The position numbers and the translations under genes are program-made. Source: Pandoraea communis (GTDB lineage: Bacteria > Pseudomonadota > Gammaproteobacteria > Burkholderiales > Burkholderiaceae). Taken from it: a stretch of DNA of 64,000 nucleotides. Shown piece by piece: positions 4,203-21,113 of this stretch. The stretch lies in contig NZ_CABPSJ010000002.1 in the NCBI RefSeq assembly GCF_902459745.1, positions 372,001-436,000 of the forward strand, given 5' to 3'. Under the pieces are notes generated by a model. It was not told where the DNA came from. It saw nothing but the letters and a program-made list of their open reading frames with translations, and made no database searches. The first letter of the stretch is position 1; every line of letters begins with the position of its first letter.

Positions 4203-4711
4203 CACATCCCTCCAAACCAAGCCGCCATGATTTCGTGACGAGGTGGAATTGGCATCGACCCGGCGCGATGCTTGATCCGGTTGACTCGTGGAGCACCGTC
4301 ACCGCGCAATCCACCCGAGATGCAATCCTCATCACTGACAAGGGAGTACTCTCTGGCGTCTACGGTGCTCGTGTGGCCACGGCCAGCGCTCACCTTACGA
4401 GTGCCGACAACCTGGGCTTCCTCGTTCTCGGTCAAGCGCGCAATAGCTCGATCAACAGCGTTATGCGAAAGGCCTGTAGCTTTCTCGATGTCGCGGAGCG
4501 TGGCCCGCTTTAGCTTCTCAAGCGACTTGCGCACCATGTCTGTCGGGCTTTCTCCACCACGCGGCCCGAGCTTCATACACCGAGCACGTCGGCAAATAGC
4601 GCTCATTTTTATTCCGAAATGTTCAGTAAGTTCCTTCGTGGATGCCTTGCGCTTCCACATGTCCCGCAGCGCGTCCTTCTGCTCTTGGTTCCATGAATGG
4701 CGTATTGTCAT
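4202..4711 (-). CDS. Phage helix-turn-helix regulator
   Basis: A 169-residue protein with two DNA-binding regions. Residues 1-48 (WNQEQKDALRDMWKRKASTK onward to RRARCMKLGPR) resemble a GcrA- or Myb-like helical module. Residues 58-95 (SLEKLKRATLRDIEKATGLS, then VDRAIARLTENEEAQVVG) form a winged HTH. It sits at the boundary between replication genes and the packaging block, where lambdoid phages place their late activator, so a late-transcription role is a reasonable inference. Confidence 0.55.
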   Translation of the reverse strand: MTIRHSWNQEQKDALRDMWKRKASTKELTEHFGIKMSAICRRARCMKLGPRGGESPTDMVRKSLEKLKRATLRDIEKATGLSHNAVDRAIARLTENEEAQVVGTRKVSAGRGHTSTVDAREYSLVSDEDCISGGLRGDGAPRVNRIKHRAGSMPIPPRHEIMAAWFGGM

Positions 4712-8658: not shown

Positions 8659-8721
8659 TACAAATATATTTGTAGCACTCTACAGACAAATTTGCAAGCC
8701 GATCCTACAAAATCGTTTGTA
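8659..8721. promoter_or_regulatory. CI/Cro operator region between the divergent repressors
   Basis: Two copies of TACAAA-N4-TTTGTA are visible. One is a perfect 16-base palindrome at 8659-8674 and the other, at 8706-8721, has its last base on the A of the cI start codon. A weaker half-site (GACAAATTTGC) lies between them near 8685-8695. The same pattern occurs twice more upstream of the rightward operon, which supports it as the repressor site. Confidence 0.8.
8669..8697 (-). promoter_or_regulatory. Leftward early promoter
   Basis: On the minus strand TTGCAA (8697-8692) and TACAAA (8674-8669) are separated by 17 bases. The -10 element lies inside the perfect operator palindrome, so repressor binding would block it. 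Transcription would begin a few bases before the Cro-like gene. Confidence 0.6.
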
Positions 8722-9404
8722 TGAAATTCCTTTATGAGCGCCTAGCATTGGCGATGACAGCCGCTGAATTTGATGTGGCGAGGGATCAAAGCCGTCTGGC
8801 ACGGCTCGTCCCTTGTTCACCTCAGAACATCCAGCACCTGCTTGATCCAAACAAGAATGCAAAAAGCAGCAAGTTCCTACCCCGGATAGCCGAGGTTCTC
8901 GGATGCGACGTCAATTGGCTTGCATACGGAACAGGAAGTCCGCCCAGGAACAAAAATGAGCCGCTGCAAGAAGTGGAGCCGGCGCCAGACCTAAAAATGG
9001 GGCGACTAGTCCCAGTTGTCGGAGAGGTAATGGGAGGCAAGGAAGGAGCACTCGAAGAGTTTGCGTATCCAGTTGGATTCGGGGACGGTTACGTCGAATA
9101 CCCTTCATCCGATCCGCATGTATATGCGCTTCGCGTTCGCGGGGATTCAATGCATCCGAGGTATCGCGCTGGGGAGTTCGTTGTAATCGAACCCAGCATT
9201 GAGCCCCAGGATGGCGACGACGTAGTTGTTATCTGCGTCGACGGAAGAAAACTGCTGAAGCAGTTGAATTGGCTAAGAGACGATGAGCTTCAGTTGCTTT
9301 CGATTAACAACGGCTATGCCCCCCTCACGCTAAAACGCAGCGACGTTCATAGCCTGCAACTAGTGGCGGGCCGAGCGCGAAGAAGCGCCTTTATGAAGAC
9401 TTAA
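8721..9404 (+). CDS. cI: CI-like phage repressor with S24 peptidase domain
   Basis: A 227-residue lysogeny repressor. Residues 1-70 form an HTH domain (LARLVPCSPQNIQHLLDPNK). Residues 95-215 are the LexA/CI self-cleaving domain, with Ser143 in VRGDSMHPRY and Lys177 in GRKLLKQL as the catalytic pair. RecA-stimulated self-cleavage on DNA damage is the known behaviour of the family. A clear Ala-Gly cleavage site is not obvious in the linker. The start ATG overlaps an operator and lacks a ribosome-binding site, suggesting a leaderless message. Confidence 0.92.
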   Translation: MKFLYERLALAMTAAEFDVARDQSRLARLVPCSPQNIQHLLDPNKNAKSSKFLPRIAEVLGCDVNWLAYGTGSPPRNKNEPLQEVEPAPDLKMGRLVPVVGEVMGGKEGALEEFAYPVGFGDGYVEYPSSDPHVYALRVRGDSMHPRYRAGEFVVIEPSIEPQDGDDVVVICVDGRKLLKQLNWLRDDELQLLSINNGYAPLTLKRSDVHSLQLVAGRARRSAFMKT

Positions 9405-10220: not shown

Positions 10221-10580
10221 ATGACTGCACGTGAAAGCATCATTTCTCAGTTGGCCGAAGGCGAGGTCTACATCGGATCAATCACCAATGCTGACGGCGC
10301 TGGCCATCACGTCATTCTTCTGCCCGGCGACGTCGAAAAGACGTGGACTGAGGCGATGAAATGGGCGAAAGAAGCTGGCGGCGATTTGCCAAATCGCGTC
10401 GAGCAAGCGCTGCTTTATGCGAATCACTCGGATCGCTTCAAGAAGGATTGGTACTGGTCGAACCAGAAGGATGAAGACGGCTTCGCCTGGTATCAGTACT
10501 TCCTCAATGGTAGCCAGAGCGGCATCAGCCAGTACTACCGGTTGCGTGCGGTGGCCGTCCGCAGATTGCCCATTCAGTAA
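10221..10580 (+). CDS. DGR target protein 1 (C-type-lectin-like, DUF1566-related)
   Basis: A 119-residue protein with an AAGGAG site before its ATG. The core AKEAGGDLPNRVEQALLYAN then WYWSNQKDEDGFAWYQ resembles the small C-type-lectin fold used by DGR variable proteins. Its last 34 residues are encoded by variable repeat 1, in which ten codons can change and the final LRAVAVRR is fixed. It has no signal peptide or membrane helix. It is the first gene of the CI-controlled rightward operon and lies about 4.3 kb from the template, separated from it by recombination genes. Its binding partner is unknown. Confidence 0.88.
   Translation: MTARESIISQLAEGEVYIGSITNADGAGHHVILLPGDVEKTWTEAMKWAKEAGGDLPNRVEQALLYANHSDRFKKDWYWSNQKDEDGFAWYQYFLNGSQSGISQYYRLRAVAVRRLPIQ
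10477..10567 (+). repeat. DGR variable repeat 1 (VR1)
   Basis: 91 bases aligned without gaps to the template at 14904-14994. The first 20 and last 29 bases are identical. The 42 bases between differ at 11 positions, ten of them template adenines and one a T to G at the TAC codon. Confidence 0.95.
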
Positions 10581-10619
10581 TTCATTAATTTCTCCCAGCG
10601 TCTCGCGGAGGAAATCACC

Positions 10620-10895
10620 ATGAACGCACCTCTTCCCTGCGTGGCAACGCAGGATCTCGGCGAATACCTGCGCCAACAAGACGCGGCAGACCTGCTGGCA
10701 GCCGCGCGAGAACGTGCCGCGGAGTCGGCCGATGCAATCAATGCGTTGCAGCGCCTTCTTGATGAGAACTATGGCGCGTATTGCGAACTGCAAAACGCCC
10801 TGATCAGACAAGACGCCAAGCGTGCCGGAGAAATCATGTCTTCCGCATTCGAAGCAGAGATCAGCGTCTTTATTGAAGAAGAGGTGCGCGAATGA
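10620..10895 (+). CDS. Phage protein of unknown function
   Basis: A 91-residue, probably all-helical acidic protein (MNAPLPCVATQDLGEYLRQQ onward) with a GGAGG ribosome-binding site. It overlaps the next gene by 4 bases and sits between DGR target 1 and the recombination genes. I recognise no family. Confidence 0.55.
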   Translation: MNAPLPCVATQDLGEYLRQQDAADLLAAARERAAESADAINALQRLLDENYGAYCELQNALIRQDAKRAGEIMSSAFEAEISVFIEEEVRE

Positions 10896-11086
10896 TCCAG
10901 GACTACTGCTTTCGCTGTGGCCAAGCCGGACATTGTTCTGAGGACTGCCCTCAATTCAAAGTGTCGCGCGAAATTTCCATCGCCTACGCCGGGTTTCTGA
11001 TTCTCGTTGCCCTTCTTTCTCTGGTTGGTGTCGCTGCTCAGTGTGCTGACGCCTTCGCATATCCGACTTTCGGGAGTTTCAAATGA
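10892..11086 (+). CDS. Zinc-knuckle protein with a membrane helix
   Basis: A 64-residue protein that starts with a retroviral-type CCHC zinc knuckle, CFRCGQAGHCSEDC (residues 6-19, spacing C-X2-C-X4-H-X4-C), followed by one hydrophobic helix (IAYAGFLILVALLSLVGVAA). It would sit at the membrane with a nucleic-acid-binding finger in the cytoplasm. It is coupled by 4-base overlaps on both sides. The combination is unusual and I know no named family for it. Confidence 0.65.
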   Translation: MIQDYCFRCGQAGHCSEDCPQFKVSREISIAYAGFLILVALLSLVGVAAQCADAFAYPTFGSFK

Positions 11087-11283
11087 CCGATCTTTCTATT
11101 CCGAAGAACGTTGACCTGCTGACTTTCGACTGCTCAATGCTGACAGATGCGGAGCGCCAAGAATGCTGGCTCGCAGGGCTGGCTCAGAAGTCGAAGCAAG
11201 CCCTAGGCTCTAACTGGATGCTGCACAAGTCGCACGCGCCGGCCAAGGGCCGCTACAACAACTGCGGCACTCGGATCGCTTGA
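11083..11283 (+). CDS. Small phage protein of unknown function
   Basis: A 66-residue protein, MTDLSIPKNVDLLTFDCSML onward, overlapping the zinc-knuckle gene by 4 bases. It contains three cysteines but no regular metal motif. No family is recognised. Confidence 0.55.
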   Translation: MTDLSIPKNVDLLTFDCSMLTDAERQECWLAGLAQKSKQALGSNWMLHKSHAPAKGRYNNCGTRIA

Positions 11284-11291
11284 GGTGGGTT

Positions 11292-11465
11292 ATGGACCCG
11301 CAATGGTGGGCTGAAGTAGGCGCCCTTGAATATTTGGAATGGTACGAAACCTCCGGAGCACGACATGAAGACGAGCGAGCAGTTGACGAACATATCCGCC
11401 GCATTGGTGAACGCGCAGAAGGCAATCACCTTCGCGACAAAGGATGCGACGAATGCCCATTTTAA
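11292..11465 (+). CDS. Possible small phage protein overlapping the ERF gene
   Basis: A 57-residue frame (MDPQWWAEVGALEYLEWYET onward) with a GAGG just upstream and two tryptophans followed by an acidic, His-rich tail. Its last 100 bases overlap the ERF gene in another frame, which makes it doubtful. I report it because the upstream part leaves an otherwise empty gap in a very compact operon. Confidence 0.3.
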   Translation: MDPQWWAEVGALEYLEWYETSGARHEDERAVDEHIRRIGERAEGNHLRDKGCDECPF

Positions 11466-11982
11466 GAACAAGTATGCAGACCTTGCTTCGGTAGTCGACG
11501 CGGTTAAACCGGCGCTCAACGACGCTGGAATCGCCTTCATCCAAACCCCATCCCCTTCGGACGATGGTCGCCTTCACCTGACCACTCGGCTGATTCATTC
11601 ATCGGGGGAGTGGATTGAAGACACGCTTGTTATGCCCCTTCCGAAGCAAGACCCGCAAGGGTATGGCTCAGCGATCACATACGGCCGGAGATATGCCCTT
11701 GCGTCGATCACCGGTCTCTATCAAGACGATGACGACGGCAATGCGGGGTCGAATGTTGCTGGCGAGGGTTCGTCCGAGCGCAAATCGGATTCTCGTCGCC
11801 AACAAAAGAACAACGCGCCCCAAGATCCGGATGAAATCGCCTCCGATGCGATGAATCGCATGGAGTCAGCCGAAACGGTAGCCGAACTCGTGAAGATCAT
11901 GAACGGACTCACGAAGGAGCAAAAGGCTACTGCCAACGAGACGTTCAACCGTCGAATGTCCGAACTCAAGAAGGCCGCGTAA
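11365..11982 (+). CDS. erf: ERF-family single-strand annealing recombinase
   Basis: A 205-residue protein from the ATG at 11365 ([20 protein letters not shown]). The ERF core [29 protein letters not shown] and [20 protein letters not shown] is clear. It is followed by an acidic DDDDG stretch, a charged linker and a helical tail. ERF proteins anneal complementary strands coated with SSB and circularise phage DNA. SSB, a Gp157-like protein and an exonuclease follow directly, forming a recombination cassette. Confidence 0.9.
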
Positions 11983-12323
11983 TGGCATCCGTGAACAAAG
12001 TTATTTTGGTCGGCAATGTTGGTGCGGCCCCCGAAACCCGATATACCGGCAACGGTGATGCGATTACCAATATCCGTCTGGCTACTAGCGACAAATACAA
12101 GGACAAATCATCGGGAGAGATGAAGGAATCTACCGAATGGCATCGCATCGCGTTCTTCGGACGGCTCGCCGAAGTCGTATCAGAACATGTTCGCAAGGGG
12201 TCATCTCTGTATGTAGAGGGACGCCTTAGGACTCGGAAATGGCAGAACCAGCAAGGCCAAGACCAATACAGCACGGAAATCATCGCTGATCAAATGCAAA
12301 TGCTTGGGAGCAAGGAACGATGA
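11982..12323 (+). CDS. ssb: Phage single-stranded DNA-binding protein
   Basis: A 113-residue OB-fold protein, [20 protein letters not shown], with the SSB landmarks [32 protein letters not shown] and [12 protein letters not shown]. It ends right after the OB fold and lacks the flexible linker and acidic DDDIPF-type tip that host SSB uses to recruit repair proteins, so it would coat DNA without that docking site. It overlaps the neighbouring genes by 1 and 4 bases. Confidence 0.92.
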
Positions 12324-12820
12324 CCCTCAGTCTTTTCACTATCGCGGGCGAGTACCGCGCACAGCTCGACCAGCTTGAACAACTCGGGTTGGACGAAGCA
12401 ACCTTCAACGATACGCTCGAATCGATCAGCGGCGACCTCGAAACCAAGTCCGTCAACGTCGCCATGTTTGCGCGCAACTTGGAATCGAGCGCAGCCGCCA
12501 TTGAAGAGCAAGCGAAGCTGATGATCGAGCGCGCCAAGGGTATCCGTAAGAAGAGTGAGCACGTGAAGGAATACCTGAAGGCGAACATGGAGCACGCAAA
12601 GATCCAGAAGATCGAGTCGCCTTACTTCGTACTCTCGATCCGCAAGAACCCGCAGTCGCTGGTGATCGATGATGAAAAGCAAGTCCCGCCATCGTTCCTG
12701 AAGACACCCGAACCGCCACCTCCCGTTCTCGACAAAGAGAAGCTGAAAGAAGTTCTGAAGGCTGGCGAGGCTGTCCCGGGCGCCCATCTCGAACAGAAAA
12801 CGCGCCTAGAGATCAAGTGA
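12320..12820 (+). CDS. Siphovirus Gp157-like protein
   Basis: A 166-residue helical protein. [40 protein letters not shown] and [20 protein letters not shown] are characteristic of the Gp157 family. Gp157 of a Streptococcus phage has been linked to phage resistance, and homologues usually sit beside recombination genes as here. The tail is proline-rich ([15 protein letters not shown]). The molecular role is not established. Confidence 0.85.
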
Positions 12821-13497
12821 TGTCGGCATATATCTTCGACACCGAAACCACGAGCGCCAACGATCCTCACTTGATCGAGGCGGCCTGGCTGGCAATGAGC
12901 GATGACATTGCCGTGCACGCACCGAGAGACGTCTTCCTTCAGCGATACAGCACTGACCAGGCGATCACCTTCTGCGCAATGGCCGTTCATCATATCTTGC
13001 CGTCTGATCTGGTGGGATCGCCGCCGAACACCGAGTTCCGTTTGCCGAACGACATCGAGTACATGATTGGGCACAACGTCGATTTCGACTGGAAGGTAGC
13101 TGGATCGCTCAACGTCAAGCGAATTTGTACCCTCGCGATGGCACGTTTCCTGTGGCCCGAAGCGGACTCGCACACGCTTGGTTCGTTGAGTTACATGCTG
13201 TCGACCGATCTCGAAGCAGTGCGCCTTGAACTTCGTGATGCGCACAACGCGCTGGCTGACTGCTATCTCTGCGCTCGAGTCCTGTTCGCGATCATCGAAC
13301 ATTGCGGCGAAGACCTGAAGACGTGGGAAGACGTATATCAGTTCTCCGAACGTGCACGCATCCCGACCCGCATGCCCTTCGGAAAACACGCGGGAACGCC
13401 GATCAAGGACATCCCCTACGACTACCGCGCGTGGCTGCTGCGTCAGACGGATGTCGACCCGTATTTGCGTAAGGCGCTGGAAAGCAAGACCGCTTGA
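12820..13497 (+). CDS. DnaQ-like 3'-5' exonuclease with DUF3820 tail
   Basis: A 225-residue protein. The RNase H-like exonuclease motifs are YIFDTETTSA (Exo I, Asp and Glu near residues 7-9), GHNVDFDWKV (Exo II) and LRDAHNALADCYLCA (Exo III, HxAxxD). Residues 180-225 (RMPFGKHAGTPIKDIPYDYR) form a DUF3820 module often fused to exonuclease X-like proteins. The ATG overlaps the preceding stop. It probably provides strand resection for ERF-mediated annealing. Confidence 0.85.
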   Translation: MSAYIFDTETTSANDPHLIEAAWLAMSDDIAVHAPRDVFLQRYSTDQAITFCAMAVHHILPSDLVGSPPNTEFRLPNDIEYMIGHNVDFDWKVAGSLNVKRICTLAMARFLWPEADSHTLGSLSYMLSTDLEAVRLELRDAHNALADCYLCARVLFAIIEHCGEDLKTWEDVYQFSERARIPTRMPFGKHAGTPIKDIPYDYRAWLLRQTDVDPYLRKALESKTA

Positions 13498-13521
13498 TCT
13501 AACCAACCACAGGAGCACTCC

Positions 13522-13875
13522 ATGACTCAGGTCGTAATCCCGCCGCTCAATGAGGGCGAAACCTACCTTTGCGGCTTCGTTGACGCAAACGGTGACGTCG
13601 AACACACCGTGATCGTCGCGATCAACAACGAGCGCGCCGAATGGCAAGAGCAGTTGGACTGGGCAAAGGCCCTTGGCGCTGACTTGATGACGCGGCCTGA
13701 ACAGGCTGTCGCGTACGCAAAGCACAAGGATCTGTTCGAAGCGGCGGCGTACTGGAGCAACGAGGATGCCGGTGACGGCTTCGCCTGGTATCAGTACTTC
13801 GACGGTGGTTACCAGGGCTGCAGCCTCCAGAGCCACCGGTTGCGTGCGGTGGCCGTCCGCAGATTCAAAAATTAA
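13522..13875 (+). CDS. DGR target protein 2 (C-type-lectin-like)
   Basis: A 117-residue paralogue of targets 1 and 3, with an AGGAG site before the ATG. The scaffold (DWAKALGADLMTRPEQAVAY, AAYWSNEDAGDGFAWYQ) matches the others. The C-terminal residues from 85 onward are encoded by variable repeat 2, followed by only FKN after the fixed RR. Thirteen template adenines have changed in this copy, the most of the three. It has no export signal. Confidence 0.88.
   Translation: MTQVVIPPLNEGETYLCGFVDANGDVEHTVIVAINNERAEWQEQLDWAKALGADLMTRPEQAVAYAKHKDLFEAAAYWSNEDAGDGFAWYQYFDGGYQGCSLQSHRLRAVAVRRFKN
13775..13865 (+). repeat. DGR variable repeat 2 (VR2)
   Basis: 91 bases aligned without gaps to the template. 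There are 13 differences, all at template adenines. The flanking 20 and 29 bases are identical to the template, and homology stops at its end. Confidence 0.95.
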
Positions 13876-13905
13876 GTCATTCACCCATTTCAACGGAGCA
13901 TCGCA

Positions 13906-14364
13906 ATGACGATCACGCTTGAGGCCATCGAGGCCAAGCATTCCGAACTCGGTCAGTTGATCGAGCGGTTCAAGGAACAGGCAAAGGGCACCGAGATTCG
14001 CATTCATGACACAGTGATCCCGCTCGCTGCCGGCGAGCGCTTCGCCGGGGTTGTGCTGAACGAAGACGGCACACTTCGCCACTACCTGATCAAACTCGCC
14101 GGCGAGACGGAAGACGTCGATTTCACCGACGCGCGCGAGTGGGCCTTGAGCAAGGGCGGCGAACTGCCGACCCGGCAGGAACAGGCCCTGCTCTACGCCA
14201 ACCTTAAGGGCGAGTTCTCAACCAACTGGTATTGGTCTGGTGAGGAGCATGAAGACGGCTTCGCCTGGTATCAGCACTTCCACAATGGTGGCCAGACCTG
14301 CGACAGCCAGCTCAGCCGGTTGCGTGCGGTGGCCGTCCGCAGATTTATTCCTTCAATCATTTAG
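13906..14364 (+). CDS. DGR target protein 3 (C-type-lectin-like)
   Basis: A 152-residue paralogue with an extra N-terminal helix of about 30 residues (ALEAIEAKHSELGQLIERFK-like segment, residues 3-25) that could mediate oligomerisation. The scaffold WALSKGGELPTRQEQALLYA and NWYWSGEEHEDGFAWYQ is followed by variable repeat 3 from residue 117 and a short tail IPSII. It lies 30 bases after target 2 and 11 bases before avd, so the two nearer targets, avd, template and reverse transcriptase form the compact DGR core. Confidence 0.88.
   Translation: MTITLEAIEAKHSELGQLIERFKEQAKGTEIRIHDTVIPLAAGERFAGVVLNEDGTLRHYLIKLAGETEDVDFTDAREWALSKGGELPTRQEQALLYANLKGEFSTNWYWSGEEHEDGFAWYQHFHNGGQTCDSQLSRLRAVAVRRFIPSII
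14255..14345 (+). repeat. DGR variable repeat 3 (VR3)
   Basis: 91 bases aligned without gaps to the template. There are 11 differences, all at template adenines, within the central 42 bases. Confidence 0.95.
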
Positions 14365-14375
14365 CCATTTGAGCC

Positions 14376-14738
14376 GTGGCCCAGCACACACAACTCCCCA
14401 TCTATCGGGCGGCATACACGCTGCTCGATAGCGTCACCGATATGGTCAAGAACATGCCCCGCGACTTCAAGCGATCGATTGGCGAGAAGATCAGCGTGGA
14501 ATGCATCGAGATCATGGTGCTGGTCTTTCGGGCGAACGTGGCGACGGACAAGTCACCTCACCTGACCGAGTTGCTCGAGCGCCAGCAGGTCATCGAACTG
14601 CTGCTGCGGCTTTGCGTCGACAAGCGGCTGATCTCACGGCCCGCTTACGCAGGCGCGATCGAGCAGACGACCAGCATCGGGAAACAGGCCAACGGCTGGA
14701 AAAGCAGTTCCGCAAAGCGCCCGCTTCGCCAAGGTTAA
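14376..14738 (+). CDS. avd: DGR accessory variability determinant (Avd)
   Basis: A 120-residue, all-helical basic protein from a GTG start (MAQHTQLPIYRAAYTLLDSV). The segments VKNMPRDFKRSIGEKISVEC, IEIMVLVFRANVATDKSPHL and LLERQQVIELLLRLCVDKRL match the four-helix-bundle Avd family, which forms a pentamer and binds the reverse transcriptase and template RNA. It lies in the expected place between the last target and the template, supporting a complete DGR. Confidence 0.88.
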   Translation: MAQHTQLPIYRAAYTLLDSVTDMVKNMPRDFKRSIGEKISVECIEIMVLVFRANVATDKSPHLTELLERQQVIELLLRLCVDKRLISRPAYAGAIEQTTSIGKQANGWKSSSAKRPLRQG

Positions 14739-14903
14739 GGCCTAAGCGACTGAGCGCTCTTTTCAATCTGGTCACGCCGCTGCCTCACGAGGGCACCGAC
14801 AGGCGCACAACGGATACCGACGGCGGTGGCCGTGGCTGGTCCGGCGCAGTTTCCTGGCTGATCGGTATGCCTTCGGCTAGGTGACGTGGATAGCGCGACT
14901 TCT
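14739..14903 (+). ncRNA. DGR RNA upstream part (avd to template spacer)
   Basis: Between avd and the template lie 165 bases with no gene supported. In the Bordetella phage DGR, transcript from avd through the template is copied by the reverse transcriptase, and sequences flanking the template are required. This stretch is therefore the likely 5' part of the template RNA. Its ends are not visible from sequence. Confidence 0.4.
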
Positions 14904-16106
14904 ACGGCTTCGCCTGGTATCAGAACTTCAACAATGGTAACCAGAACTACAACAACCAGAACAACCGGTTGCGTGCGGTGGCCGTCCGCAGATTGGGATT
15001 CAGCAGAGAACGACGGCTTTACGTTCGCCGAGCTGGTCGATGCCTATTTCGACTGCCGGCGAACAAAGCGCAACTCCGGCAACGCACTCGCGTTCGAATT
15101 GAACCTAGAGCGCAATCTACGGGATCTGTACGACGAGCTGATGGACGGTTCGTATCGCCCCGGAAGGTCGATCTGCTTTGTCATTACCAGGCCGAAGCCG
15201 CGCGAGGTATGGGCGGCAGACTTCCGAGACCGGATCGTCCATCACCTGCTCTACAACCGCATCTCGCCGCCCTTCTACGCCTCGTTTGTAGCGGACTCAT
15301 GTGCTTGCATTCCGGGCAGGGGCACGTTGTATGCGGCAAAGCGGCTGGAAAGTCAGGTGCGAAGCTGTACGCAGAACTGGTCGAAACCAGCTTTCTACCT
15401 GAAATGCGATCTCGCCAACTTCTTCGTCAGCATCGACAAGCGGGTGCTACATCGTCAGGTGATGGCAAAGATCCCGTCCAAGTGGTGGCGCCTGCTGACC
15501 AAGCTGGTGCTGTGGCACGACCCGCGCGAGAACGTAGACATGCGCTGCCGCCCGGAACTGCTTGCCAAGGTTCCGAAGCACAAACGTCTGATGGAGCAGC
15601 CAGCACATTTGGGCCTCCCCATCGGCAACCTGTCGAGCCAGTTCTTTGCGAACATCTACCTCGACGCGCTGGATCAGTTCGTGAAGCATCAGATCCGCGC
15701 GCCAAGGTATGTCCGGTACGTGGACGACTTCGTTCTCGTCCACGAGTCACCGCAATGGCTGAACGAGGCACATGCCCGCATCGATGCATTCCTGCCAGAT
15801 CGGCTACACGCTCGCCTAAATCCGACGAAGACGATCATGCAGCCAGTCGATCGAGGAATCGATTTCGTCGGCCACCTCCTCAAGCCGTGGCACCGAACAA
15901 TCCGGCCCCGGACGCGGCGGCAAGCGGCAGCGCGCTTGACCGAGATTCCCGCCGCCGACGTTTATCAGGCCACGAACAGCTATTTCGGCCTACTGCGGCA
16001 ATCGCCGTCGGGCCATCACCATCGATCTGAAATCGCCAACATCGCCCGTCAGCGCGGCCATGCAGTCAGCGCCGCCCTCACCAAAGCCTACAGGAGCAAA
16101 GCATGA
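14886..16106 (+). CDS. DGR reverse transcriptase
   Basis: The frame is 406 residues from a GTG at 14886. The first ~37 codons read through the template repeat, and conserved sequence begins at FTFAELVDAYFDCRRTKRN. Internal starts at 14934 (ATG) and 14973 (GTG) are possible; none has a strong ribosome site except weakly the first. RT motifs are KCDLANFFVSIDK (173-185), GLPIGNLSSQFFAN (243-256, typical of DGR enzymes) and YVRYVDDFVLV (275-285, catalytic YVDD). It makes adenine-mutagenised cDNA from the template for the three targets. The stop overlaps the next ATG. Confidence 0.93.
   Translation: MDSATSTASPGIRTSTMVTRTTTTRTTGCVRWPSADWDSAENDGFTFAELVDAYFDCRRTKRNSGNALAFELNLERNLRDLYDELMDGSYRPGRSICFVITRPKPREVWAADFRDRIVHHLLYNRISPPFYASFVADSCACIPGRGTLYAAKRLESQVRSCTQNWSKPAFYLKCDLANFFVSIDKRVLHRQVMAKIPSKWWRLLTKLVLWHDPRENVDMRCRPELLAKVPKHKRLMEQPAHLGLPIGNLSSQFFANIYLDALDQFVKHQIRAPRYVRYVDDFVLVHESPQWLNEAHARIDAFLPDRLHARLNPTKTIMQPVDRGIDFVGHLLKPWHRTIRPRTRRQAAARLTEIPAADVYQATNSYFGLLRQSPSGHHHRSEIANIARQRGHAVSAALTKAYRSKA
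14904..14994 (+). repeat. DGR template repeat (TR)
   Basis: 91 bases matching all three variable repeats. The central 42 bases hold eight AAC, one AAT and one TAC codon in the target frame, so nearly every variable site is an adenine. The 29-base 3' end (CGGTTGCGTGCGGTGGCCGT then CCGCAGATT) is identical in all copies and is the likely initiation-of-mutagenic-homology segment. Confidence 0.95.
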
Positions 16107-19830: not shown

Positions 19831-20931
19831 ATGATCGGACGACGCAAGAACGCCTCCCCTCTCCCGTCACGCGTGTACGAAAAGCACGGTTCCTGGTGGT
19901 TTGTAGACGCGCGCCGTAAATGGCATAAATTGTGCCGCGTTTCGGATGGACTCACGACGCTGTATGGGGAACTGGCGAAGTTCACGCGCGACGCGGATGC
20001 TATACCGGTTGATACGATGCCAGCCCTGATAGACGACTGGCTCCTAAAAAAGCTCGGTAAGTACGCTCTTTCCACACGAGAGGATTACCGGCGCATGGCG
20101 ACGTTCATTCGTAGCGAGTTTGACGACGAGTGGCAAGTGACCGACGTTAAACCTACGCACATCGCCCGCTTTCTCGACAAACATTTCGAGGCTAAACCGA
20201 ATACCAGCAACAAGTACCGCGCACTGTTTTCGTTGTTGTTCGCGCACGCAGTTCGCAAGGGCTTGCGCGATAGCAATCCGGCCAGCGAGGTAGAGGGAGC
20301 AATCGAGCGCAAGCGCGATCGGTATATTACCGATGCCGAGTTCGATGCGATCAAGGCTGCCGTTTTGCTCGGGCGAGACGGACGAGAGACCGACTCAGGT
20401 CAGACGATTGTTTGTCTGATTGATCTTGCATATCAGACTGCACAGCGCATCAGCGATCTCTTGTCACTCAACTGGCAGGACGTGAGCGACGAAGGGATCT
20501 ATTTCAAGCCTGCCAAGACTGTGAATTCGAGCGGTGTGCGCATGCTAGTGGAAATGACATCAGATCTAAGGGCCACCATCGACCGCGCGAAGGGCGGGAA
20601 AGTGAAGGCGATAGGCCCTGTGATATGCACCCAGACCGGGAACAGATTCACATACAGCGGGGCGCAATCGGCATGGAAGCGTGCATGCCAGAGAGCCCGC
20701 GAGACATACGAGAAAGCCTGCATAGAGACTGGCATAGTCCCTGATATGCAGTTCTTAAGGGACACGCACTTCCACGACTTGCGCGCCAAGGCATTGACCG
20801 ACATGAAGCGGCTCGAAGGTGCTGCCGCCGCTCAAGCTCTGGGTGGGCATACGACCGCTGAGATGACAGCGCACTACACCAAATCTCGGCAAGTGGAACG
20901 GGTATCCCCGGTGCCCTTAAAGCATGCTTGA
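19831..20931 (+). CDS. int: Tyrosine integrase
   Basis: A 366-residue phage integrase. The N-terminal region (PLPSRVYEKHGSWWFVDARR) is an arm-binding type domain, residues 60-150 are the core-binding domain, and the catalytic domain carries Arg (QTAQRISDLLSLNW), HDLRAKA (His and Arg), GGHTT (His) and the nucleophile Tyr in TAHYTKS. It recombines phage and chromosomal sites at tRNA-Pro, the 3' piece of which lies 128 bases downstream. It is the last gene of the rightward operon. Confidence 0.95.
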   Translation: MIGRRKNASPLPSRVYEKHGSWWFVDARRKWHKLCRVSDGLTTLYGELAKFTRDADAIPVDTMPALIDDWLLKKLGKYALSTREDYRRMATFIRSEFDDEWQVTDVKPTHIARFLDKHFEAKPNTSNKYRALFSLLFAHAVRKGLRDSNPASEVEGAIERKRDRYITDAEFDAIKAAVLLGRDGRETDSGQTIVCLIDLAYQTAQRISDLLSLNWQDVSDEGIYFKPAKTVNSSGVRMLVEMTSDLRATIDRAKGGKVKAIGPVICTQTGNRFTYSGAQSAWKRACQRARETYEKACIETGIVPDMQFLRDTHFHDLRAKALTDMKRLEGAAAAQALGGHTTAEMTAHYTKSRQVERVSPVPLKHA

Positions 20932-21058: not shown

Positions 21059-21104
<46 letters not shown>

Positions 21105-21113
21105 GGAATTGAA

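Follow-up and report, generated by a model that had tools for sequence, protein, structure and literature searches.

The diversity-generating retroelement (DGR) of Bordetella phage BPP-1 acts on a single target, the tail-fibre receptor Mtd, and has a hairpin just downstream of its variable repeat (VR). In print, phage DGRs are mainly read as receptor-changing tools. The viral targets of three DGR clades were assigned mostly to tails (Roux 2021; PMC8144416). For the Bacuni phages of Bacteroides, the available portion of the report proposes that the DGR switches tropism, with a role in host adhesion (PMC8143477).

DGRs with several targets, some of them distant, have been described since 2012, also from Burkholderia and Ralstonia (PMC3521204). 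The available portions of this paper (Schillinger 2012) describe elements with two to four VRs, paralogous targets and remote targets more than 5 kb away, in hosts that include Burkholderia, Ralstonia and Collimonas. The elements are treated there as host gene families, and a test for prophage association was reported unsuccessful. In GenBank, two genes of Burkholderia phage Magia (NC_070954) are labeled 'lectin fold domain protein' and flagged as a potential or possible DGR target. The third Magia target, gp46, is annotated as hypothetical. A literature search on the Magia DGR found no paper.

Here we analyze a DGR in a 64,000-nucleotide stretch of Pandoraea communis DNA, referred to as the window. 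Like the BPP-1 element, it combines a reverse transcriptase (RT), Avd, a template repeat (TR), the pattern of adenine mutagenesis and VRs at the C-terminal ends of targets. Unlike BPP-1, it has three targets located in an early operon and a structured RNA upstream of the TR. The layout of several paralogous targets, one of them remote, is not new, since it is in print (PMC3521204) and homologous targets are flagged in the Magia record. What stands out is the clade, in which early-operon, multi-repeat DGRs are found across many prophages.

Results

The TR (14904-14994, + strand) aligns without gaps to three 91-nt repeats on the same strand, VR1 (10477-10567), VR2 (13775-13865) and VR3 (14255-14345). 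They differ from the TR at 11, 13 and 11 positions, of which 10, 13 and 11, respectively, are template adenines. In total, 34 of the 35 mismatches are located at the 26 adenines of the template (hypergeometric p = 7e-6, 5e-9 and 2e-7 for VR1, VR2 and VR3). A BLAST search with the TR (E <= 0.01) found only these four TR/VR copies in the whole 5.7-Mb genome. VR1 is located 4427 nt upstream of the TR. A sequence-only reading of the window had proposed a complete DGR in a prophage early operon, with three paralogous targets that end in such repeats and one target remote from the template. All of its coordinates proved right and our alignments support these proposals; the TR, the three VRs, Avd, the RT and the operon were all found.

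Each VR is located at the 3' end of its target gene, and the median distance from the VR end to the stop codon is 14 nt in relatives. Read in the frame of the targets, the TR consists of AAY codons, so that mutation can produce many different residues. At the ten codons observed to change it creates no stop, and these codons allow about 10^11 sequences. No clear hairpin was found just downstream of the VRs, and a 7-bp pair is located inside VR2. A promoter scan found none, compared to 3.5 expected in shuffles.

The Avd gene (14376-14738, +) matches Pfam bAvd (PF22296, 8.7e-12, above the cut-off) and phrog_3206 (7.4e-30), annotated as 'Avd protein of DGR'. Its score with the NCBIfam Avd model is 47 bits, below the 80-bit cut-off of that model, and a PDB search gave no match at E 0.01. 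The RT open reading frame (14886-16106, +) matches RVT_1 (3.2e-14) and the reverse transcriptase family phrog_1423 (1.8e-113), and its translation contains GLPIGNLSSQ and YVDD. The family matches and motifs bear out the earlier placement of Avd before the template and the RT after it, with the addition that the RT frame overlaps the TR. The true RT start is uncertain, since the reading frame passes through the TR; the part alignable to annotated homologues starts near 15018. We considered a group II intron RT, for which the NCBIfam maturase match is far below the cut-off, and a defence RT, for which matches are below cut-offs. Both were rejected because the TR, VRs and Avd fit a DGR. In PADLOC, the RT matches many RT models, and the targets and Avd are without match. 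The element is a DGR, ordinary in both its parts and its mechanism.

A structured RNA absent from the earlier reading, RT-15 (Rfam RF03018), was found at 14715-14905 (+), where it abuts the TR. The covariance model score is 160.3 bits (E 1.8e-39), above the 82-bit gathering threshold. RT-15 was also found in 19 of 20 relatives' loci tried, in Magia, in Shewanella phage vB_Sb_QDWS and in one further locus (L180). It is directly against the DGR template in every case where both were located, and we regard it as the upstream part of a putative template RNA. Rfam lists RT-15 as a separate RNA.

The three target genes are on the + strand. T1 (10221-10580, 119 residues) ends in VR1 and is distal in the early operon, T2 (13522-13875, 117 residues) ends in VR2, and T3 (13906-14364, 152 residues) ends in VR3. 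T3 has a helix-like N-terminal extension that is conserved in the alignment of its homologues. T1 has a weak match to Lcl_C (E 0.032) and matches phrog_4245 (4e-7). Lcl_C was found in 52 of 60 target homologues, and matches in T1-T3 themselves are below the Pfam cut-off. A target profile matched Lcl-CTD in the PDB (8q4e, E 8e-4); other PDB matches (E 0.04 and weaker) were taken as chance. Lcl-CTD is described as C-type-lectin-like in the available part of PMC11162425. The putative lectin fold proposed earlier for the targets is supported at the level of homology. No signal-like N-terminus was seen by eye in T1-T3. A crude hydropathy value above 1.6 was found in 26 of 346 target homologues, and those shown are core-like and not charged-then-hydrophobic. 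A target tree of 47 rows carries a long-branch warning for T2 and T3 of the window.

The DGR is located on the integrase side of a prophage of about 42.8 kb inserted in tRNA-Pro. The attR core (21059-21108, +) repeats, over 50 nt and without differences, the end of tRNA-Pro found at the left boundary of the prophage (L008:18281-18330), and adjoins an integrase-like gene (19831-20931, +) labeled by eye. A repressor-like gene (8721-9404, +) was labeled by eye from its translation. Between T1 and T2, the early operon encodes an Erf-like ssDNA annealing protein (11326-11982, +; phrog_2324, 9.9e-49), a single-strand DNA binding protein (11982-12323, +; blastn to phage SSB genes), a Mu Gam-like end-protection protein (12320-12820, +; phrog_253, 1.5e-44) and an exonuclease of the DNA polymerase exonuclease subunit family (12817-13497, +; phrog_192, 9.8e-52). 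The late genes are on the strand opposite to the target operon, with the terminase large subunit at 1403-2911 (-; phrog_3717, 4.8e-48; phrog_2, 5.7e-45). None of the four TR/VR copies is located in the predicted tail fibre of the prophage. An O-acetyltransferase-like gene is also part of this prophage.

The arrangement is conserved in relatives. We compared 160 of them, the 80 best of 187 from genomes and the 80 best of 525 from viral contigs; they are non-independent, with many pairs identical across these collections, and one (L090) is the window itself. Among these 160, adenine-biased repeats were found in 155 and two or more in 138, and no repeat was found in five. A control scan of the same relatives with C, G or T as the mutable base gave 0 of 160 each, which rules out chance repeats. 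In relatives and window together, mismatches to the template occur at 4532 of 10715 adenines and at 28 of 23829 other positions, in a search that tolerated up to three non-A mismatches per 60 positions and after trimming of the outer ends. A lysogeny gene is near the DGR in 135 of 161 loci. Integrase is downstream of the RT in 105 loci and upstream in two, with neighbor clusters labeled from one representative each and the third integrase cluster by eye. Seven phage records searched whole contain 17 VRs, none in late genes. Among 45 records searched, terminase was found in 15 and is on the strand opposite to the RT in 14; the exception, L141, has it on the RT strand and contains a Mu-type transposase. 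A near-match search of plasmids gave no match. Within the genus, the cassette is present in three of 32 genomes, its own included, none near enough for isolate comparison.

Magia resembles the window in its RT, which is about 66% identical where the two align, and in having Avd, RT-15, a TR and three VRs, one distal and all in the integrase-side operon. Its TR and VR sequences differ, and RecT and exonuclease replace Erf, SSB and Gam. Phage QDWS and Pseudomonas phages Cruim01, Haboob, SC_8_H2H8_2017, phPA-G and LPPA56 belong to the same RT clade (60-68%) and have two or three VRs in small upstream open reading frames. Four of these six have two VRs compared to three in the window, and the Pseudomonas phage targets are longer, about 160-220 residues. 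The Bacuni phages, in the available part of their report (PMC8143477), also have two DUF1566-type targets, one distal, but their RT is only about 30% identical to that of the window.

The DGRs of relatives have diversified their targets. Two loci, L105 and L106, have 15 differences in their first 2593 positions; 14 are in a VR, all at template adenines. Between Haboob and phPA-G, the VR differences are at template adenines in 12 of 12 and 13 of 13 cases. In pairs with at least 98% identity and identical TR, 66 of 66 differences are at adenines (46 comparisons, most with zero). Some pairs have many non-A differences (15 of 32 at adenines in L124/L129, 21 of 66 in L131/L153), and these were taken for truncated, misregistered or different templates. 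Phages Aurca01 and Medea1 are without an RT yet keep diversified, orphan targets. In the second target of Cruim01, Aurca01 and Medea1, 20 of 22, 18 of 21 and 15 of 16 VR differences are at adenines, so that 6 of 59 are not. For the window's prophage, whose activity we infer, no variation was observed; L090 matches it without difference across 17055 nt and probably represents the same genome.

Discussion

The observed anatomy, adenine bias and conserved layout suggest that a temperate-phage DGR diversifies three early-operon lectin-like proteins, probably intracellular binders. The RT, together with Avd, would copy an RNA transcribed from the avd-TR-RT stretch, of which RT-15 would form the folded 5' part. 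Copying at adenines would be random, and the cDNA would replace the 3' ends of the three paralogous genes. Their small Lcl_C/C-type-lectin-like products would be expressed early, with the integrase-side recombination genes and not the late genes. They would most likely be cytoplasmic, acting as diversified binders inside the host cell or lysogen, and their ligands may be, for example, host defence proteins or rival phages.

The targets could instead be virion parts, small lectin-domain tail tips through which the DGR alters adsorption as in BPP-1, with their early position left over from a transfer of the cassette. Published viral DGRs target mainly tail proteins (PMC8144416), the Bacuni phages combine a distal DUF1566 target with a proposed tropism change (available part of PMC8143477), and the target domain family includes the adhesin domain of Lcl. 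However, no VR was found in the late genes of the seven phage records, terminase is opposite to the RT in all but one of the 15 records that have it, and the prophage has its own predicted tail fibre without a TR-like repeat. We consider this explanation unlikely. The same observations, with the operon position, strengthen the earlier proposal that the products are not virion receptors. The context gives good support, short of proof, to T1-T3 being early, non-virion binders.

Lysogenic conversion, in which exported or surface-displayed targets shield the lysogen or attach to other cells in the manner of cellular DGR adhesins, would fit the mostly membrane-bound targets of cellular DGRs and the O-acetyltransferase-like gene. 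Lcl_C is also known chiefly from Lcl, a surface adhesin of Legionella (available part of PMC11162425). This explanation is very unlikely given the N-termini of T1-T3 as judged by eye and the rare hydrophobic segments of their homologues, core-like in those shown. The DGR could also be genuine but inactive or in decay in this lysogen, with its VRs now frozen. The lack of variation in the window's prophage and the existence of sister phages that lost the cassette are consistent with this. In contrast, all reading frames are open, the RT motifs and RT-15 are intact, and only one of 35 mismatches across the VRs is not at an adenine, making silence quite unlikely.

Beyond early, non-virion binding as such, we tentatively raise the possibility that this DGR lineage evolves, instead of the virion, an intracellular set of early paralogous lectin-fold binders, adapted through adenine mutagenesis to variable proteins of host defence or rival phages and retained as fixed effectors after retroelement loss. 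Since related phages share the arrangement, what the target proteins bind is a testable question. If the targets are non-virion, the long-standing question of a phage DGR role besides tropism can be tested in the isolated phages Magia, Haboob and Cruim01. Aurca01 and Medea1 are natural versions without the retroelement.

Anatomy of the element

Diversity-generating retroelements (DGRs) generally act by adenine-mutagenic retrohoming, in which a template repeat (TR) is copied into a variable repeat (VR). The sequence-only reading had described three repeats matching one template without gaps, and this was confirmed. The TR (14904-14994) aligns over 91 nt with VR1 (10477-10567), VR2 (13775-13865) and VR3 (14255-14345), all on the plus strand. 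VR1 has 11 mismatches to the TR, 10 of them at template A. All 13 in VR2 and all 11 in VR3 are at template A. No further TR or VR copies are found in the genome (E ≤ 0.01). Avd and the reverse transcriptase (RT), also recognized earlier, are both backed by Pfam and PHROGs matches. Adenine-mutagenic retrohoming from the TR into the 3' ends of the three targets, T1 (10221..10580), T2 (13522..13875) and T3 (13906..14364), is the best reading of this arrangement. There are nine AAY codons in the TR; change has been observed in ten codons, which together can encode about 10^11 variants, with no stops. At 14886-15017 the RT reading frame passes through the TR, which may serve as template and as RT N-terminus codons at once.

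A structured RNA, RT-15 (Rfam RF03018), was overlooked in the first reading. It scores 160.3 bits, against an Rfam threshold of 82, and spans 14715-14905, reaching from the avd end into the first TR bases. Short loci from relatives, 20 in all, were also tried: 19 of them reach the threshold, as do the phages Magia and QDWS and another related stretch, L180; in the single locus without RT-15, L119, the RT sits at a contig end. The RT-15 end coincides with the TR start in every relative where both could be placed. RT-15 probably forms the folded 5' portion of the template RNA. No relevant paper tying RT-15 to DGRs was found.

Adenine bias among relatives

Relatives were picked with an RT alignment: from 187 loci in genomes and 525 in viral contigs, the best 80 of each kind were analyzed. 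The loci are not independent of one another. In these 160 loci, a TR and at least one A-biased VR are found in 155, and at least two such VRs in 138. With the window counted in, this best-matching set contains 350 VRs, of which the T3 position accounts for 155, the T2 position for 122 and places farther upstream for 73; 346 are inside ORFs matching a target profile, and these ORFs have a median length of about 156 aa, with start codons estimated. Mismatches in the same set affect 4532/10715 template A's versus 28/23829 other bases, the latter partly by construction, as the repeat search tolerated no more than 3 non-A mismatches per 60, with repeat ends trimmed. A control in which the mutable base was set to C, G or T is not by construction, and yields a TR/VR pair in 0/160 of these loci.

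Closely related elements differ mainly at template adenines, a sign of activity in relatives. Two relatives' stretches, L105 and L106, have 15 differences in their first 2593 shared positions, 14 of them in a VR and all 14 at template A. The VR differences between phages Haboob and phPA-G are at template A in 12/12 and 13/13 cases, and those between relatives at least 98% identical with the same TR in 66/66; all these comparisons are from relatives, the window's prophage not being among them.

Targets and their fold

A Lcl_C domain (Pfam, Legionella adhesin Lcl) is matched in 52 of 60 target homologues (best 2.2e-8), and the target profile matches the C-terminal domain structure of Lcl, 8q4e (E 8e-4), termed C-type-lectin-like in its authors' text (PMC11162425). 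In a midpoint-rooted target tree, with long branches for the window's T2 and T3, the T3 proteins fall into a single clade (19 rows, support 98/97) separate from T2. Distal targets have more than one origin, and the window's T1 groups with an orphan from another genome of the genus (G002). This orphan (L179:10218-10676), a T1 homologue with a VR-like end, is located in a prophage remnant, next to a tRNA and an integrase-like ORF; the G002 genome yields no match to Avd or to the cassette.

Targets also persist in phages lacking the cassette. Cruim01 carries avd, RT-15, TR and RT. Its sisters Aurca01 and Medea1 have most of its early operon in common and retain the targets, and are absent from the 23 records with this RT (E ≤ 1e-40). 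The 1714 nt with the Cruim01 cassette are replaced in them by 537 nt with an ORF that by eye is HNH-like. For the first target, comparison of Cruim01, Aurca01 and Medea1 gives 14, 16 and 4 differing sites in the 510-nt bodies, mostly synonymous (Cruim01/Aurca01, 10/125 versus 4/385), versus 11, 16 and 15 in the VRs, all at template A. The second target is noisier, with 53/59 VR differences at template A. The targets were therefore diversified and persisted without the cassette. The small HNH-like ORF (L185:12909-13400 and L184:8299-8793), at the exact avd-TR-RT site, bears the annotation RecB in Aurca01, and the two replacement stretches are identical over 530 nt.

Viral contigs contributed 77 target loci. 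An RT is present in the surrounding stretch for 65 and absent from the record for 12, several of these 12 being short or cut fragments. Two viral contigs, L206 and L234, contain targets and a (partial) Avd match and no RT in the whole record, and are possible decayed cassettes.

Prophage location and proposed role

The prophage is bounded by two identical 50-nt cores, in tRNA-Pro (L008:18281-18330) and at 21059-21108, about 42.8 kb apart. Late genes (terminase, head protease, major head, sheath, tape measure, baseplate and tail fibre) occupy the minus strand on the left side. The plus strand contains T1, Erf, SSB, Gam-like, exonuclease, T2, T3, avd, TR, RT and an integrase-like ORF, in this order; repressor and integrase labels on the window's own ORFs were assigned by eye. 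An O-acetyltransferase-like gene (L009:173-1285; phrog_3333, O-antigen acetylase family) adjoins the tail fibre genes, and a contribution to lysogenic conversion is possible.

In the clade, neighboring ORF clusters, labeled from one representative each, include repressors, integrases, DNA methyltransferases, RecE/exonuclease, Erf, SSB, ParB-like, CII and transposase proteins; tail families are the leading match in 0 of 20 representatives searched. A lysogeny gene is present in 135 of 161 loci (the window plus the 160 best-matching loci above), 70 of these being among the 80 genome loci. In the same 161, the integrase is downstream of the RT in 105 cases and upstream in 2, and the repressor upstream in 73 and downstream in 1. 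Searched in full, the records of Magia, QDWS, Cruim01, Haboob, SC_8_H2H8_2017, phPA-G and LPPA56 yield 17 VRs. All are upstream of the RT, with the junction of the circular record lying in between in QDWS, and none is in late genes where annotated, SC_8_H2H8_2017 and LPPA56 being sparsely annotated. A search of 45 viral records at least about 34 kb long located a terminase in 15, and in 14 of these the terminase and the RT are on opposite strands. The sole exception, L141, is a Mu-type transposase phage of the same DGR clade with two VRs. Because of this gene position and the survival of orphan targets, the targets probably have an early, non-virion role, in which they would bind a variable partner.

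Passages in print already describe multi-VR and remote-VR DGRs, with Burkholderia, Ralstonia and Collimonas among the hosts (PMC3521204), six VRs in Stenotrophomonas, five in DUF1566 proteins (PMC6642488), and two-target phages, a distal target and an RT whose reading extends through the TR (PMC10743442, PMC8143477, PMC10612066). Viral DGR targets in clades 1, 4 and 6 are described as tail for the most part (PMC8144416). An open-access library yielded no publication on phage DGR targets in early operons, which is not proof of absence. The main text of the Cruim01 description (PMC11256456) contains none of the DGR terms looked for. No publication was found on Burkholderia phage Magia, two targets of which carry DGR-target flags in GenBank. 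The records of 'Hujiaoplasma phage zrk29-1' (OP650936.1) and Shewanella phage QDWS (OK094664.1) are both 47902 long with mirrored matches, and differ in stated host (Tenericutes bacterium versus Shewanella); they are possibly one phage under two names.
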